Assembly: GCA_937120475.1 (NCBI GenBank)
Contig: CAKZJV010000007.1
Span: 1,318,068-1,382,067 of the forward strand
Origin: an uncultured Cryomorphaceae bacterium
GTDB lineage: Bacteria; Bacteroidota; Bacteroidia; Flavobacteriales; Schleiferiaceae
Direction of reading: 5' to 3'
Length of the DNA: 64,000 nt
Positions 6,653 to 27,674 of the stretch are shown here, piece by piece. The position numbers were made by a program, and so were the translations under genes. How positions within the stretch are numbered: the first letter of the stretch is position 1; every line of letters starts with the position of its first letter. The notes beneath the pieces are model-generated. The model made no database searches. It worked only from the letters and a program-made list of their open reading frames with translations, and was not told the DNA's origin.

Positions 6653-6681
6653 TTTCCCAATTATTATTTTGAATACATTTG
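6653..6681 (+). promoter_or_regulatory. Candidate promoter of the cobalamin-uptake operon
   Basis: A perfect -7 element TACATTTG lies at 6674-6681, with a 3-of-4 match to TTTG (TTTC, 6653-6656) 17 nt upstream. Transcription would begin near 6688, just before the riboswitch. Confidence 0.55.
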
Positions 6682-6699
6682 CCCCGCATTTGGTTTTCA

Positions 6700-6858
6700 A
6701 CGTCAGAACAGGCGTTGGAATTAAAAGGGAATCCGGTGAAAATCCGGGACAGTTCCCGCTGCTGTAAGCACCACCAAGCGCAACCCCTCTTTTGTCACTG
6801 TTCCGGGATAACGGAATGGGAAGACCGGTTGCAGGGTGCAAGTCAGAAGACCTGCCTT
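6700..6858 (+). promoter_or_regulatory. Cobalamin (B12) riboswitch
   Basis: The conserved core is clear. GGGAATCCGGTGAAAATCC begins at 6728, followed by the segment ending in CCCGCTGCTGTAAGC, a central GTCACTG, and at the 3' end the B12-box relative AGTCAGAAGACCTGCC (6841-6856). It precedes a TonB-dependent receptor, the standard context for such switches in Gram-negative bacteria. The distal sequence contains GCAGG (6891-6895) next to an ATG, complementary to CCTGC (6851-6855) of the aptamer 3' strand. I see no U-run terminator, so control is probably at translation initiation. The exact 5' boundary is approximate. Confidence 0.93.
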
Positions 6859-6895
6859 ATGCATAAATCATTACCGCTTTCGGGATAAAAGCAGG

Positions 6896-21304: not shown

Positions 21305-22258
21305 CTAAAATATGGCGCGGGCAATCGCCTGGATATTATCTACTTTACCCATCGAGTAAAAATGGATTACCGGAACTCCACTCTCTTTAAGTTCCTTGCA
21401 TTGCTCAATGGCCCACTCAATACCTACCTCTCTTACCTCGGCATTATCCTTACAATTAATCACGGCCTTTACCAAATCGTCTGGTATATCTACGTGAAAA
21501 CGGTGCGGCAATACACTCAAATGTCTTTTGGTAGCAATCGGCTTAATACCCGGTATAATAGGGACGGTGATACCGGCCTTCCGGCATTTATCTACGTAAT
21601 TGAAGTAACTCTTGTTATCGAAAAACAACTGGGTTACGATATAATCGGCCCCCGCCTCCACTTTGCGGATGGTATTCTCGATATCATTATTGATACTCGG
21701 TGCTTCAAAATGCTTCTCCGGGTAACCGGCTACACCCACACAAAAATTGGTGGGTGTATTGTTCTTTAATTCTTCATCCAGGTAAATTCCCTTGTTCATA
21801 CCGGTAATTTGTCCCACCAGCTCACTGGCGTAGGTATGGCCGTTTTTTTCCGCTACAAAGTAGGTTTCACCTTTAATGGAGTCACCACGCAGGGCCAGCA
21901 CATTTTCAATACCTAAAAAATCCAGGTCGATCAAGGCATTTTCGGTATCCTCCCGGGAGAAACCTCCACAAAGGATATGCGGAACGGCATCAATTTTATA
22001 GCGGTTTTGTACGGCTGCACATATACCCACGGTTCCGGGGCGCTTACGCACTACCTTTTGCTCCAGCAAACCACTGTCCAGCCGCTTGTACACCACTTCT
22101 TCACGGTGATAGGTTACATTAACAAAGGGCGGTTTGAACTCCATCAACGGATCAATGGTATCGTAAATGTTACGGATGTTCTGACCTTTTAAAGGAGGCA
22201 GTATTTCAAATGAAAAAATAGTCTCCCTGGCATTATGGATATGGTCAATTACTCTCAT
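21305..22258 (-). CDS. metF: 5,10-methylenetetrahydrofolate reductase
   Basis: A 317-residue MTHFR, close to E. coli MetF (296). It reduces methylene-THF to methyl-THF with FAD and NAD(P)H, making the methyl donor for methionine synthase. Visible motifs include the N-terminal catalytic Glu region FSFEILPPLKG, VTYHRE, ALRGDS, and DYIVTQLFFD, all typical of the TIM barrel. It starts 10 nt downstream of metH2 and is the last gene of the SAM-I controlled operon metH1-metH2-metF. Confidence 0.97.
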   Translation of the reverse strand: MRVIDHIHNARETIFSFEILPPLKGQNIRNIYDTIDPLMEFKPPFVNVTYHREEVVYKRLDSGLLEQKVVRKRPGTVGICAAVQNRYKIDAVPHILCGGFSREDTENALIDLDFLGIENVLALRGDSIKGETYFVAEKNGHTYASELVGQITGMNKGIYLDEELKNNTPTNFCVGVAGYPEKHFEAPSINNDIENTIRKVEAGADYIVTQLFFDNKSYFNYVDKCRKAGITVPIIPGIKPIATKRHLSVLPHRFHVDIPDDLVKAVINCKDNAEVREVGIEWAIEQCKELKESGVPVIHFYSMGKVDNIQAIARAIF

Positions 22259-22268
22259 GTATTAAAAT

Positions 22269-24926
22269 CTAATTATCATAGTTGAGGTTAGGGCGAAGCC
22301 ACCTTACTGCTTCATCGTAGCTTATCCCTTTACGTTGGGCATAGTCTTCTACCTGGTCGCGGCTGATTTTTCCTAAACCAAAGTATTTGGCATCCGGGTG
22401 GGCGAAGTAGTAACCGGAAACGGAAGAGGCCGGGAACATGGCCAGGTTTTCTGTTAAGGTGATGCCCACTTTTTCGGCTTCCAGCAGTTTAAAAATGGTT
22501 TGCTTTTCCAAGTGATCGGGACATGCGGGATAGCCGGGCGCAGGACGAATTCCACGGTACTTTTCCTTTATCAGCTCCTCATTTTCAAGGTGCTCATCTT
22601 TAGTATAGCCCCAATACCGGGTACGCACTTCACGGTGCAGCCATTCGGCCGTAGCTTCTGCCAGACGGTCGGCCAGGGCCTGCACCATAATGGCGTGGTA
22701 ATCGTCCAGATCATTCTTGTATTTCTCCACCAGTTTATCTGCACCAAGGCCGGCCGTAACGGCAAAACAGCCTGCGTAATCCGTTTGTGTGCTTTCCCGG
22801 GGTGCTACAAAATCACTCAGAGCCAGGTTATGGGCCGCTGCCGCTTTTTGGGTTTGCTGCCGCAGCGTACGGAAGGTTTCGAGGGGTTGCCCGTTTTCAT
22901 AAAGCTCGATGTCATCGCCCAGTGAGTTGGCCTCCCAAATCCCAAAAACAGCATTGGCTTTCAGGCTTTTGCTGGAGATTATTTCATCCAACATAGCGTT
23001 GGCATCTTTGTAAAGTGCCGTGGCCTCTTCCCCGACCACTTGGTCTTCCAGTATTTTGGGGAACCTTCCATGTAACTCCCAGGTAATGAAAAATGGCGTC
23101 CAGTCAATGTAGTTCCGGATTTCAGATAGGTCGAGGTCTTCCATTACTTTAACCCCCAAAAAATCAGGTCTGGCAATGGTTTCTTCATTAAAATCCAGCT
23201 CCGGTTTATTGGCACGGGCATCTTGGATGGAAAGGTATTCTTTGGTATCGCCTTTCTTGAGGTAGCCATTGCGCAATTTGGTGTATTCCGCAGCCAGTTT
23301 CTTTTTGAAATCAAGGTGCGAAGCTTTATTACTAAGCGTTTGCGCCACCGGTACACTGCGGCTGGCATCGTTTACATGTACGGCTATTCCGGAATACTCG
23401 GGGTAAATTTTTACGGCTGTATGTGCCCGTGAAGTGGTGGCACCGCCAATCATCAGCGGAAGTGTCATCTGCTGGCGCTCCATCTCACGCGCCACGTAAA
23501 TCATCTCGTCCAGTGAAGGCGTTATGAGTCCGCTCAGGCCGATCGCATCTACATCCTCACTTTTGGCGGTTTCCAGAATTTTCTCCAGCGGCACCATCAC
23601 ACCCAGGTCCACAATATCAAAATTGTTGCAGGCCAGTACCACGCCTACTATGTTTTTACCAATGTCGTGCACATCACCCTTTACAGTTGCCAAAAGGATT
23701 TTTCCTTTTTTACGGTTGTCGGGGTTTTTCAATTTTTCAGCTTCCAGGTAGGGCTGCAGGTAGGCCACGGCCTTTTTCATCACCCGTGCTGATTTTACCA
23801 CTTGGGGCAAAAACATCTTACCGGAGCCAAACAGGTCGCCTACTACGTTCATGCCATCCATCAACGGTCCTTCAATCACCTCGAGCGGGGTCGCAAACTG
23901 CTGCCGAGCCTCCTCGGTATCTTCCTCAATAAAATCCACGATTCCCTTTACCAGCGCGTGTTCTATCCTTTTTCCCACCGGATCTTCACGCCAGGCGATA
24001 TCTTTTTCGCGGGTTTTGGTTTCGCCTTTAAAGCTTTCCGCAAAATCCAAAAGACGTTCGGTGGCATCATCACGCCTGTTGAGCAAAACGTCTTCCACCC
24101 GCTCCATCAAATCCTTGGGCACTTCTTCGTACACCTCAAGCATGGTGGGGTTTACAATGCCCATATCCATACCGTTTTTAATGGCGTGGTACAAAAAGGC
24201 CGCGTGCATGGCTTCGCGTACGGGCTGGTTTCCACGGAAGCTGAACGATACGTTGCTCACCCCCCCACTCACCTTAGCACCCGGCAGGTTTTCCTTGATC
24301 CATTTAGTAGCCTCAAAAAAGTCAAGCGCATTTCTACGATGCTCTTCAATACCCGTTGCCACCGGAAAAATATTGGGGTCAAAAATGATATCATCCTTCG
24401 GGAAACCGACCTCGTTTACTAGAATGCCGTAGGAGCGTTTGCAGATGTCGATCCTGCGTTGGTAGTTGTCGGCCTGGCCATCCTCATCAAAAGCCATCAC
24501 AATTACTGCCGCGCCATAGCGCTTTACCAGCTTGGCCTGGCGCACAAATTCCTCCTCCCCGCCTTTCAGGCTAATCGAGTTTACAATGGGTTTGCCCTGC
24601 ACGCATTTGAGGCCGGCTTCAATAATTTCCCACTTAGAGGAATCGATCATTACCGGCACCCGGCTAATGTCAGGCTCAGCTGCAATCAGGTGAAGAAATT
24701 TTACCATGGCCGCCTTACCGTCCAACATGCCTTCATCCATGTTCACATCAATCACCTGGGCTCCGCCTTCTACCTGCTCGCGGGCTACTTCCACGGCTTC
24801 TTCATAACGATCTTCCTGGATCAGGCGCAGGAATTTCCGGGAGCCAGTGACATTGGTGCGTTCTCCCACATTGATAAAATTGGAGGCCGTTGATATTACA
24901 AGTGGCTCTAATCCGGATAGCTTCAT
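22269..24926 (-). CDS. metH: Methionine synthase, cobalamin-dependent, C-terminal polypeptide (folate, B12 and activation domains)
   Basis: An 885-residue chain with MetH modules 2-4. The pterin-binding TIM barrel is residues about 10-270 ([22 protein letters not shown]). The cap and B12 domain are about 300-560, with the cobalt-ligating motif DVHDIG (His420) and [11 protein letters not shown]. The C-terminal AdoMet-activation domain includes [12 protein letters not shown]. It transfers methyl from methyl-THF through cob(I)alamin to homocysteine bound on the partner chain. Together the two chains total 1235 residues, matching E. coli MetH (1227). The split falls at the natural linker after the homocysteine domain, so it is not a frameshift. 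Confidence 0.97.
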
Positions 24927-24960
24927 GAAATGTTGAAAATTCTTGAGTTAAGGGAATGGG

Positions 24961-26013
24961 TTAGGATACTTTCAATGCGGCTTCGGACACTTCTTTATGT
25001 TTGCGCGGTTGATACCGGGTCGCCAACCCGGCTATGGCCTTTATATGATCCGGGCCGGTACCGCAACATCCACCGATGATGTTGATCAGGTCCAGTTCCA
25101 GGAACTCTTGAATCTGGGCGGCCATCATTTCCGGGCTTTGATCATATTCACCAAAGGCATTGGGTAAACCTGCATTGGGGTGGGCACTTACCCAAAAGGG
25201 TGATTTACGGGCCAGTATCTGCAAATAAGGCCGTAACTGCTCTGCACCTAATGCACAGTTCAGGCCGATGGAAAATAATGGAATATGCGACAAACTGATG
25301 AGAAAGGCTTCGGTGGTTTGACCGGACAGAGTACGACCACTAGCATCGGTTATAGTACCTGAAACCATAATAGGCAACTGGTAACCCAGGTCATCAAAAA
25401 GTTCGGTAAGCCCAAAAAGAGCGGCTTTGGCGTTAAGAGTGTCGAAAACGGTTTCCACCAACAAAAGATCAACACCGCCTTGCACCAGGTTTTTGGCCTG
25501 CTCCTTATAATTCACTACCAGCGTATCAAAATCAATAGCCCGGTAACCGGGGTCGTTTACATCAGGGGAAATACTAGCCGTTTTGTTGGTAGGTCCAATG
25601 GAACCGGCTACAAAGCGCGGTTTATCAGGTTGCCGCGCACTAAACTCATCGGCTACCTGCCGGGCGATGGTGGCCGCCTGAAAATTGAGTTCCGGCACCA
25701 GGCTTTCCATGTGGTAATCGGCCATTGAAATACGGGTACTATTAAAGGTGTTGGTTTCGATAATATCTGCACCCGCTTCCAGGTATTTGGCGTGTATGGA
25801 TTTGATCATTTCCGGTTGGGTAATACTCAACAAGTCGTTATTACCCTTCAGGTCGTGGGGAAAATCTTTAAAACGTTGCCCCCGGTAATCTTCTTCGGTT
25901 GGTTTAAAAGCCTGGATCATGGTACCCATAGCACCGTCCAGCACCAGGATACGTTTTTTCACTTCTTCATGCAGGCGTTGTATTCTCTCCAACGCAAAAT
26001 TATTTTCTGTCAT
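24961..26013 (-). CDS. metH: Methionine synthase, homocysteine-binding polypeptide
   Basis: A 350-residue homocysteine methyltransferase domain, the first module of MetH as a separate chain. It starts at [14 protein letters not shown], and has the zinc ligands Cys253 (GLNCALG) and Cys316-Cys317 (IIGGCCGTG), which activate homocysteine thiolate. It is followed 34 nt later by the gene for the remaining MetH modules; the two must associate. The SAM-I riboswitch lies in its leader, so expression should fall when SAM is plentiful. Confidence 0.96.
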
Positions 26014-26079
26014 AGTCTTAATTTAAGCTATGACTTACCCGAGCATTATTTTTTAAAGGATTTGTTCTGCGAACTCACC

Positions 26080-26178
26080 TTATCTTTCTTCGATGGCTTT
26101 CGAAGTGGGAGGTAGCACCCGGCTAGCCCGGGTTGCTAAGACATCAAAGGGCCCAATCCCTCAGTCTTTCTGGATAAG
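26080..26178 (-). promoter_or_regulatory. SAM-I (S-box) riboswitch controlling metH-metF operon
   Basis: Read on the minus strand, the element opens with CTTATCCAGAAAGACTGAGG, continues with GATTGGGCCCTTTGATGTC and TTAGCAACCC, has a P3/P4 region ending GGTGCTACCTCCC, and closes with GAAAGATAAG pairing back to CTTATC (P1). These are the invariant parts of SAM-I. It ends 66 nt before metH1. I see no clear U-run terminator in those 66 nt, so the switch may act on translation or use a weak terminator. Confidence 0.93.
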
Positions 26179-26184
26179 TCAATA

Positions 26185-26215
26185 CAAAAGTACACGAGTT
26201 TTGTTAAAATGCAAG
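26185..26215 (-). promoter_or_regulatory. Promoter of the metH operon
   Basis: On the minus strand TACTTTTG (26185-26192) matches TAnnTTTG, and CTTG (26212-26215) lies 19 nt upstream as a 3-of-4 match to TTTG. Transcription would start about 26178-26180, exactly at the 5' end of the riboswitch. Confidence 0.6.
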
Positions 26216-26286
26216 TGGACTGCAAAGCTTTGATAAAGGCGAAACAAGGTGGTTAGGAATAGCGGTAGGTATTCATATTCTTTTTC

Positions 26287-26294
26287 TACATTTG
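26287..26294 (+). promoter_or_regulatory. metK promoter -7 element
   Basis: TACATTTG is a full -7 match. The predicted start near 26300 coincides with the first paired bases of the SAM-II/V element, which supports both calls. No TTTG is seen at -33. Confidence 0.55.
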
Positions 26295-26300
26295 CCGCCC

Positions 26301-26377
26301 CGGTGGAATGATTTGGCTGATTGCAACCACACTAAAAAATGCTAAAGCAGTGTTTTTAGCGTCTAAAGCCAGCCAAA
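26301..26377 (+). promoter_or_regulatory. SAM-II/SAM-V superfamily riboswitch upstream of metK
   Basis: The core GATTTGGCTGATTGCAACCAC (starting 26310), followed by CTAAAAAATGCTAAAG, matches the SAM-II pattern of a stem loop with GATTTnnCTGATTGCAA and a downstream AAAAATG-GCTAAA strand that forms the pseudoknot. P1 would be GTGG (26303-26306) with CCAC (26327-26330). The GGCTGATTGCAACCAC wording is nearer to my recollection of the marine SAM-V variant than classical SAM-II; I cannot settle the class by eye. The position, directly upstream of SAM synthetase and at the predicted transcription start, fits. The downstream segment 26353-26377 contains strands complementary to the aptamer, a likely expression platform. 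Confidence 0.78.
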
Positions 26378-26423
26378 CTCCTTCCCGGATTATTTTTAAG
26401 AAACTGTATAATCTCTTTGCTGT

Positions 26424-27674
26424 ATGGCGTATTTATTTACTTCGGAGTCTGTTTCTGAAGGACATCCCGATAAAATTGCAGATCAAATATCCGATGCTAT
26501 TATCGACCATTTTCTGGCTTACGACCCTCACTCCAAAGTGGCCTGTGAAACTTTGGTTACCACCGGCCAGGTAGTTTTGGCGGGTGAAATAAAGTCGAAT
26601 GCCTACGTTGATGTTCAAAGTGTTGCCCGGGAAGTTATCAAACGTATTGGTTACACCAAGGGGGAATACATGTTTTCAGCCGATAGCTGTGGCGTGCTTT
26701 CTGCCCTGCACGAGCAATCGCCCGACATCAACCGGGGAGTGGATCGCGGTAAACCCGAAGAGCAGGGAGCCGGTGACCAGGGAATGATGTTCGGTTATGC
26801 TACCAACGAAACCGAAAATTACATGCCGCTGGCGCTGGACTTAAGCCATAAGCTTCTCCAAGAGTTGGCGGCCATGCGCAGGGAAAACCGGGAAATTACC
26901 TATCTGCGACCGGATGCCAAATCCCAGGTTACCATTGAGTATTCCGATGATCACGTACCGCAGAAAATAAAAGATATCGTTATCTCAACCCAACACGATG
27001 AGTTCGGTGATGACGAAACCATGGCCCGCCAGATACGCAAGGATATGGTGGAACTTTTGATACCCCGCGTTAAAGCTCAGTTGAAACCTGAGTTGCAAAA
27101 ACTTTTTGAGGGCAACATCAAATACCACATTAACCCCACCGGTAAGTTTGTGATTGGTGGCCCACATGGAGATGCCGGTTTGACCGGAAGAAAAATTATT
27201 GTTGATACCTATGGCGGTAAGGGAGCCCATGGTGGCGGTGCTTTTTCAGGAAAAGACCCCAGCAAGGTGGACCGTTCAGCTGCCTATGCCACCCGTCACA
27301 TTGCTAAAAACCTGGTGGCTGCCGGTGTGGCTGATCAAATACTGGTACAGGTTTCCTACGCCATTGGCGTAGTGGAGCCCATGGGTATTTTTGTAGAGAC
27401 CTACGGCTCCGCCAAAGTGGACATGACCGATGGTGAGATAGCTGAAAAAGTAGCGGGTATATTCGATATGCGCCCCGGTATTATTGAGCAACGCTTAAAG
27501 CTCCGAAACCCCATTTATTCCGAAACGGCCGCTTATGGCCACATGGGAAGAGAGGCTCAAACTACCGCTAAAACTTTTGTCCAAAATGGTGAAGAACTCA
27601 CTAAAGATGTGGAATTGTTTACCTGGGAAAAGCTGGACTACGTGGATAAGGTGAAAGCTGAATTTGGCCTTTAG
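26424..27674 (+). CDS. metK: S-adenosylmethionine synthetase
   Basis: A 416-residue MAT, slightly longer than E. coli MetK (384). It makes SAM from methionine and ATP. Signature motifs are [15 protein letters not shown] near residue 8-22, the loop and hexapeptide [12 protein letters not shown], and the P-loop-like [19 protein letters not shown]. The N-terminus matches the family start exactly. The leader carries a SAM-responsive element, so the product should repress its own synthesis. It is convergent with the XRE gene across a shared terminator. Confidence 0.98.

Follow-up and report, generated by a model that had tools for sequence, protein, structure and literature searches.

Within a 64,000-nucleotide (nt) stretch of the 3.65-Mb genome of a marine bacterium (uncultured Cryomorphaceae bacterium, assembly GCA_937120475.1, contig CAKZJV010000007.1, positions 1,318,068 to 1,382,067; this whole stretch is hereafter termed the window), the leader of the methionine adenosyltransferase gene metK carries a long-loop SAM-II riboswitch that probably lowers metK translation when S-adenosylmethionine (SAM) is plentiful. 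The aptamer and its co-evolution with a downstream anti-aptamer strand are read from the sequence and from comparison with relatives, and the fold and the SAM-bound state are modelled. A preliminary description of this leader had proposed a SAM-II or SAM-V type aptamer with several mutually exclusive hairpins, through which SAM binding would free or hide downstream strands; its main reading is supported by the analysis presented here.

The metK leader contains a long-loop SAM-II aptamer

The following features of the window define the aptamer, its putative promoter, and the controlled gene:

26297..26355, + strand: SAM-II (long loop) riboswitch aptamer (RF01726, 64.5 bits, E 3.9e-10 for the window; gathering cut-off 44)
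26303..26306, + strand: P1 5′ strand GTGG, pairing with CCAC at 26327-26330 (Rfam alignment; invariant in the 28-row alignment A1)
26312..26316, + strand: L1, which by analogy with the L1/P2b of metX SAM-II (PMC5352136) would supply the third strand of a SAM-II triplex; also paired with the anti-aptamer strand in the rod described below (from sequence)
26317..26324, + strand: P2 pseudoknot 5′ strand CTGATTGC, pairing with 26341-26350 in the aptamer
26341..26350, + strand: P2 pseudoknot 3′ strand GCTAAAGCAG, partner of CTGATTGC
26287..26294, + strand: TACATTTG, matching the Bacteroidota -7 promoter element TAnnTTTG, 8 nt before P1 (from sequence)
26424..27674, + strand (ATG at 26424): metK, methionine adenosyltransferase, the controlled gene (TIGR01034, 509.8 bits; cut-off 309.4)

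The element is a real SAM-II riboswitch and a member of the known class RF01726, the SAM-II long loops motif catalogued as a cis-regulatory switch from Bacteroidetes and marine sequences (Weinberg 2010, PMC2864571), and is predicted to bind SAM. The proposed SAM-II-type aptamer was thus confirmed; however, neither of the covariance models that had been named for it fits, and the matching model was one left unnamed. RF00521 reached only 16.8 bits against a gathering cut-off of 36 (E 0.24), with no match at E≤0.001 genome-wide and likewise none in control genomes, and a search of 26000-26500 with RF01826 (SAM-V) returned nothing at E values up to 1; on these scores, the element was assigned to neither class.

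The leader displays the P1 hairpin and conserved loop of RF01726 (GTGG:CCAC and ATTTG...CTGATTGCAACC, both conserved in A1), lies 5′ of the SAM gene metK as is the context for this class, and has an L1/P2 core that is invariant with relatives. To place it among these relatives, a set of 88 genomes from the same family was used. RF01726 was found in 64 of them; L016, in which the aptamer pattern was missed, and L032, on a contig without the metK start, were left out in turn, reducing 64 SAM-II loci to 63 and then to 62 leaders from 15 genera, window included. The aptamer is 5′ of metK in all 63 parsed leaders, with the ATG located in 62. The pseudoknot P2, formed between the loop and the 3′ tail, is best read from sequence as CTGATTGC with GCTAAAGCAG; TTTGGC:GCTAAA was weighed as P2 and then abandoned for that pairing. 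Under a lenient test accepting any of four offsets, the outer P2 trinucleotide finds a three-base match no more than 6 bases after GCTAAA in 60/63 leaders and fails in L005, L020, and L040; the pair is CTG:CAG in 41 of the 63 and CCG:CGG in a further 15.

The transcript would probably start just 5′ of the aptamer, because the TAnnTTTG match lies 8 nt before P1. This motif, the -7 consensus quoted in PMC7366714, is present 4-9 nt 5′ of P1 in 59/63 family leaders, compared with a background of 123 in 10487 windows of 30 nt. An 88-amino-acid (aa) open reading frame (ORF) at 26308-26574 (+ strand) begins within the aptamer and runs into metK in a different frame; it is probably spurious.

The aptamer is predicted to compete with a rod

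Every pairing put forward in the preliminary description was located as described, with all eight stretches reading exactly so: GTGG (26303-26306) and CCAC (26327-26330), TTTGGCTG (26312-26319) and CAGCCAAA (26370-26377), CTAAAAA (26332-26338) and TTTTTAG (26353-26359), and GCTAAA (26341-26346) and TTTAGC (26355-26360). Folded without a pseudoknot, positions 26297-26411 have as their minimum free energy (MFE) structure a single rod of -27.6 kcal/mol, containing the helices TTTGGCTG:CAGCCAAA (26312-26319:26370-26377; pair probabilities 0.92-1.00) and CTAAAAA:TTTTTAG (26332-26338:26353-26359; 0.41-0.98), as well as an outer helix absent from the earlier account (26300-26303:26385-26388; 0.75-0.98). 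Two downstream features are central to what follows:

26353..26388, + strand: anti-aptamer strand, whose segments TTTTTAG(C), CAGCCAAA, and TCC..CCGG base-pair with 26300-26338 in the predicted SAM-free rod (pair probabilities; swap test)
26372..26375, + strand: GCCA, a segment of the anti-aptamer strand that, in the model of the SAM-bound leader, pairs with TGGC at 26425-26428, within the start codon and the one after it (from the MFE structure of 26351-26480 folded with the aptamer left out)

The rod takes up P1 and L1 together with the two strands of P2 and therefore cannot form alongside the aptamer, in agreement with the incompatibility first suggested. Mutual exclusivity among the hairpins themselves was borne out in part: GCTAAA:TTTAGC, an alternative inner helix, needs bases that CTAAAAA:TTTTTAG also uses, and GTGG:CCAC is in competition with the rod, whereas TTTGGCTG:CAGCCAAA and CTAAAAA:TTTTTAG nest within one and the same rod. 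Against dinucleotide shuffles, the duplex between the aptamer 5′ half (from 26295 to before CCAC) and the downstream leader was stronger than expected in the window (z -2.25, p 0.04) and reached p≤0.05 in 36/62 family leaders; for the loop alone, the window gave p 0.06, with p≤0.05 in 26/62.

Aptamer and anti-aptamer strand co-evolve

Anti-strand offsets differ between leaders, spoiling RNAalifold consensus folding on MAFFT alignments (A1 likewise misaligns the anti-strands), and swap tests were used for this reason. Aptamers were exchanged between genera, a procedure that needs no alignment of the downstream strand, and the energy gained on folding a leader with its own versus a foreign aptamer was ranked, 0.5 being the expected rank. 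Own aptamers gained a mean of -14.9 kcal/mol compared with -8.7 for foreign ones across the 62 leaders, with a mean rank of 0.17 that fell below 0.5 in 15/15 genera; that leaders pair better with their own than with other genera's aptamers indicates that aptamer and anti-strand co-evolve. A weaker version based on RNAduplex energies gave a mean rank of 0.26 over 61 distinct leaders, a swap on duplex energies of the aptamer 5′ half gave 0.32 (13/15 genera), and a swap on the loop alone gave 10/15 genera.

Within the window's own genus, a compensatory change is apparent, from TTTGGCTG:CAGCCAAA in the window to TTTGACTG:CAGTCAAA in L015. Other genera use differing registers, i.e., CTGCTTGC with GCAAGCAG in g18, GGCTGATTGC with GCAATTAGCC in g6, and CCGATTGC with GCAATCGG in L059.

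Modelled SAM binding makes the metK start harder to open

The cost of opening the start was compared between an apo state, in which the whole leader could fold without the pseudoknot, and a bound model, from which the aptamer had been taken out; the leader between aptamer and start was shuffled for comparison. Over the 62 family leaders, bound minus apo averaged +3.28 kcal/mol versus 0.06 in shuffles, exceeding 0.3 in 58/62 and reaching p≤0.05 in 40/62, with a positive mean z in 13/15 genera. The window itself gave +5.03 versus -0.18 in shuffles (p 0.024). Other flank lengths yielded means of 3.56 and 2.85, with 59/62 and 55/62 leaders above 0.3. Leaders also pair with their own start region better than with foreign ones (mean rank 0.23; 14/15 genera). 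By calculation, the start is thus less accessible when the aptamer is bound, as for a translational OFF switch.

As computed, the leader lacking its aptamer pseudoknot would form one rod, with the anti-aptamer strand occupied. SAM would keep the 5′ half in the aptamer, thereby releasing the anti-strand, which together with the neighbouring leader would base-pair around the start; calculations that omit the aptamer give the start a higher opening cost. SAM would drive this change, leaving metK ON without SAM and OFF with it, and control would act on the initiation of translation, independently of any Shine-Dalgarno sequence. The phylum to which this bacterium belongs mostly does without Shine-Dalgarno use. 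Whether SAM frees or hides the downstream strands had been left open in the preliminary description; the modelled states favour SAM freeing the anti-strand, which would then hide the start.

Several observations weigh against this interpretation. (i) The bound state is represented solely by deletion of the aptamer from the fold. (ii) In the window, the apo MFE structure keeps a weak helix at the start codon (26404-26410:26421-26427); with the apo start already weakly paired, occlusion would shift from weaker to stronger (5.5 to 8.2 kcal/mol). (iii) The congeners L014 and L015 are individually nonsignificant (p 0.122 and 0.171), genera g8 and g14 run in the opposite direction, and 3/62 leaders lie below -0.3. 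(iv) The variable 5′ tip alone has no swap signal (mean 0.50), and RNAalifold on the MAFFT alignment of 61 distinct leaders recovered the P1 helix only; the covariation anticipated for the pairings thus emerges from the swap test in 15/15 genera but not from the consensus fold of all leaders. (v) Start occlusion is absent from 14 SAM-II metK leaders outside the family (0.55 vs 0.20; 0/14 at p≤0.05).

Less likely alternatives: termination, direct occlusion, and loss of function

Direct occlusion and transcription termination are the SAM-II modes encountered in PMC10907184, PMC6061858, and PMC9373788, and control at the level of transcription is the mode given for the majority of SAM-II riboswitches (PMC6061858, PMC2258182), such that the metK element might likewise act through intrinsic or Rho-dependent termination and not through hiding of the start. 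We consider this unlikely: a simple scan for a terminator-like hairpin followed by a T-run returned 0 sites in 26050-26500, on which basis assignment to a transcription-terminating riboswitch class was rejected, and the start-region effect is both shuffle-specific in 40/62 leaders and co-evolving. A Rho-dependent form of termination is still conceivable. It is more doubtful still that the bound pseudoknot, lying near the 5′ end, blocks the ribosome directly and that the downstream complementarity is incidental, as the aptamer stops 68 nt 5′ of the metK start and the downstream strand co-evolves with it. The likeliest mechanism is therefore translational, because the start is harder to open in the bound model and co-evolves with the leader, and the scan of 26050-26500 found no terminator-like site.

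A further alternative is that, in the window's genome, the aptamer is no longer a working SAM switch or responds to another ligand. SAM-II has been lost or degraded 5′ of metK in 4/4 SAM-II-negative family genomes with full-length metK, and its loss would therefore be tolerated in some lineages; however, the window copy scores far over the cut-off and shares its invariant L1/P2 core with relatives, rendering this explanation highly improbable.

Distribution within and beyond the family

Among the 24 family genomes without RF01726, full-length metK was found in 4, partial pieces in 4, and none in 16, and most of these negatives are uninformative because the complete gene was found in only 4. 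In one of these, G058, a degenerate SAM-II lies 5′ of metK (L145, 1384-1440; 26.3 bits, below the cut-off) and adjoins a strong divergent SAM-I. The other three loci with full-length metK (L146, L147, and L148) gave no SAM-II match up to E 0.5; SAM-I is retained at L148, with none matched at L146 and L147. These three represent natural SAM-II losses that are usable as comparisons.

For leaders outside the family, the aptamer pattern matched 14/80 named metK loci, the 80 being the best 80 of 594 confirmed. In these 14 named Bacteroidota leaders (L106, L122-L140, and others), the aptamer 5′ half has a good downstream partner, at p≤0.05 in 10/14. The anti-aptamer strand may thus be general among SAM-II metK leaders, whereas the start-hiding form is supported for the window's family only, since the outside leaders combine this partner (10/14) with no significant occlusion (0/14).

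A divergent SAM-I riboswitch precedes metH-metF

On the opposite strand, the window encodes a second SAM sensor and its apparent operon:

26077..26180, - strand: aptamer of a SAM-I (S box) riboswitch in divergent orientation, separated by 116 nt from that of SAM-II (RF00162, 73.9 bits; cut-off 44.4)
24961..26013, - strand: metH N-terminal homocysteine-binding part, a separate ORF of 350 aa (TIGR02082 positions 2-327 of 1182, 500.5 bits)
22269..24926, - strand: metH remainder, 885 aa (TIGR02082 positions 328-1181, 1228.3 bits; cut-off 1010.85)
21305..22258, - strand: metF, methylenetetrahydrofolate reductase (TIGR00676, 319.5 bits; cut-off 293.7)

The metH gene is split into two ORFs over 22269-26013 (- strand). 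The window also contains a cobalamin riboswitch at 6674-6873 (+ strand; RF00174, 107.8 bits), and its metH is a B12-dependent methionine synthase.

In the metH SAM-I leader (26180-26013, - strand), aptamer removal raises the start-opening cost by +6.79 kcal/mol versus 0.43 in shuffles (p 0.016). The SAM-I P1 strand GACTTATCC is complementary to a downstream GGGTAAGTC, which overlaps GTCATAG, and GTCATAG in turn pairs with CTATGAC around the metH ATG. The apo MFE structure still shows the start hairpin, with a partial anti-P1 helix only, and this persistence implies a shift in stability and no clean alternative fold. All six testable SAM-I leaders, window included, behave alike, with 0/25 shuffles reaching the observed value; this sample is small and defined by a strict pattern, with 7 leaders found and 6 having a start, that of L013 being probably internal.

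In 30/64 of the family's SAM-II loci, a SAM-I element lies in divergent orientation at a distance of 48-190 nt. In the remaining loci, SAM-I is divergent at 1-9.5 kb (23/64), otherwise placed (2/64), or not on the contig (9/64), and it is present somewhere in 64/64 of the SAM-II genomes. G221, from another family of the same order, again has the two in divergent orientation, 170 nt apart. In a class-wide sample of 149 genomes, SAM-II was found in 22 and SAM-I in 107, with both in 18/22. A 2007 account found no species with both classes (PMC2258182), and SAM-II was later described in tandem with SAM-I/IV (PMC9481103).

A tentative possibility is that the two structurally unrelated sensors, in their back-to-back arrangement, constitute a single homeostatic module that the family has conserved, with SAM-I on metH-metF and SAM-II on metK, in which each anti-aptamer strand doubles as an anti-start strand and differing SAM set points would shut methionine regeneration before SAM synthesis. 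The set-point idea stems from affinities quoted for aptamers of other species, i.e., ~4 nM for SAM-I of B. subtilis versus 10 uM for SAM-II of A. tumefaciens (PMC1273637).

Discussion

Strand-exchange expression platforms use one strand to pair with either the aptamer or the initiation region. The window's anti-strand is predicted to do likewise; what it competes for, in contrast to such platforms in general, is the entire 5′ half of an aptamer of the pseudoknot type. With the RF01726 motif of PMC2864571, the window element shares aptamer sequence and structure, as expected of a member; the main-text account there gives no expression platform, to which the rod with its anti-strand and the start occlusion are added here. 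A search of open-access main texts yielded neither an account of how RF01726 members control expression through a platform nor one of SAM-I and SAM-II arranged as a divergent pair.

Like the alpha-proteobacterial SAM-II class RF00521 (Corbino 2005, PMC1273637), the element has a pseudoknot aptamer with a promoter just 5′ of P1. There, many members have terminators and the controlled genes are metA/metZ; here, no terminator was found in the scanned region and the gene is metK. Translational OFF control with SAM would be shared with the metX SAM-II and SAM-V switches (PMC10907184, PMC6061858), which, unlike the metK leader, have their ribosome-binding site within the aptamer; the strand proposed to occlude the metK start is outside it, with that start 68 nt away. 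Different SAM sensor classes in close proximity are also known from tandem SAM-II/SAM-V and SAM-II/SAM-I-IV riboswitches (PMC9481103), although the sensors there share one transcript, whereas here SAM-I and SAM-II are encoded on different strands, each for an operon of its own.

Ultimately, the expression platform and the SAM-I pairing are the parts of this system meriting closer attention. SAM-II has so far been known mainly with terminators or an intra-aptamer ribosome-binding site; the long-loop form described here appears to act at a distance, on a start codon and without Shine-Dalgarno pairing, through a platform that is traceable by covariation across the family. The co-occurrence of both sensors in 64/64 SAM-II genomes of the family, back to back in 30 of the 64, makes the question of why one cell has two SAM sensor classes directly testable.
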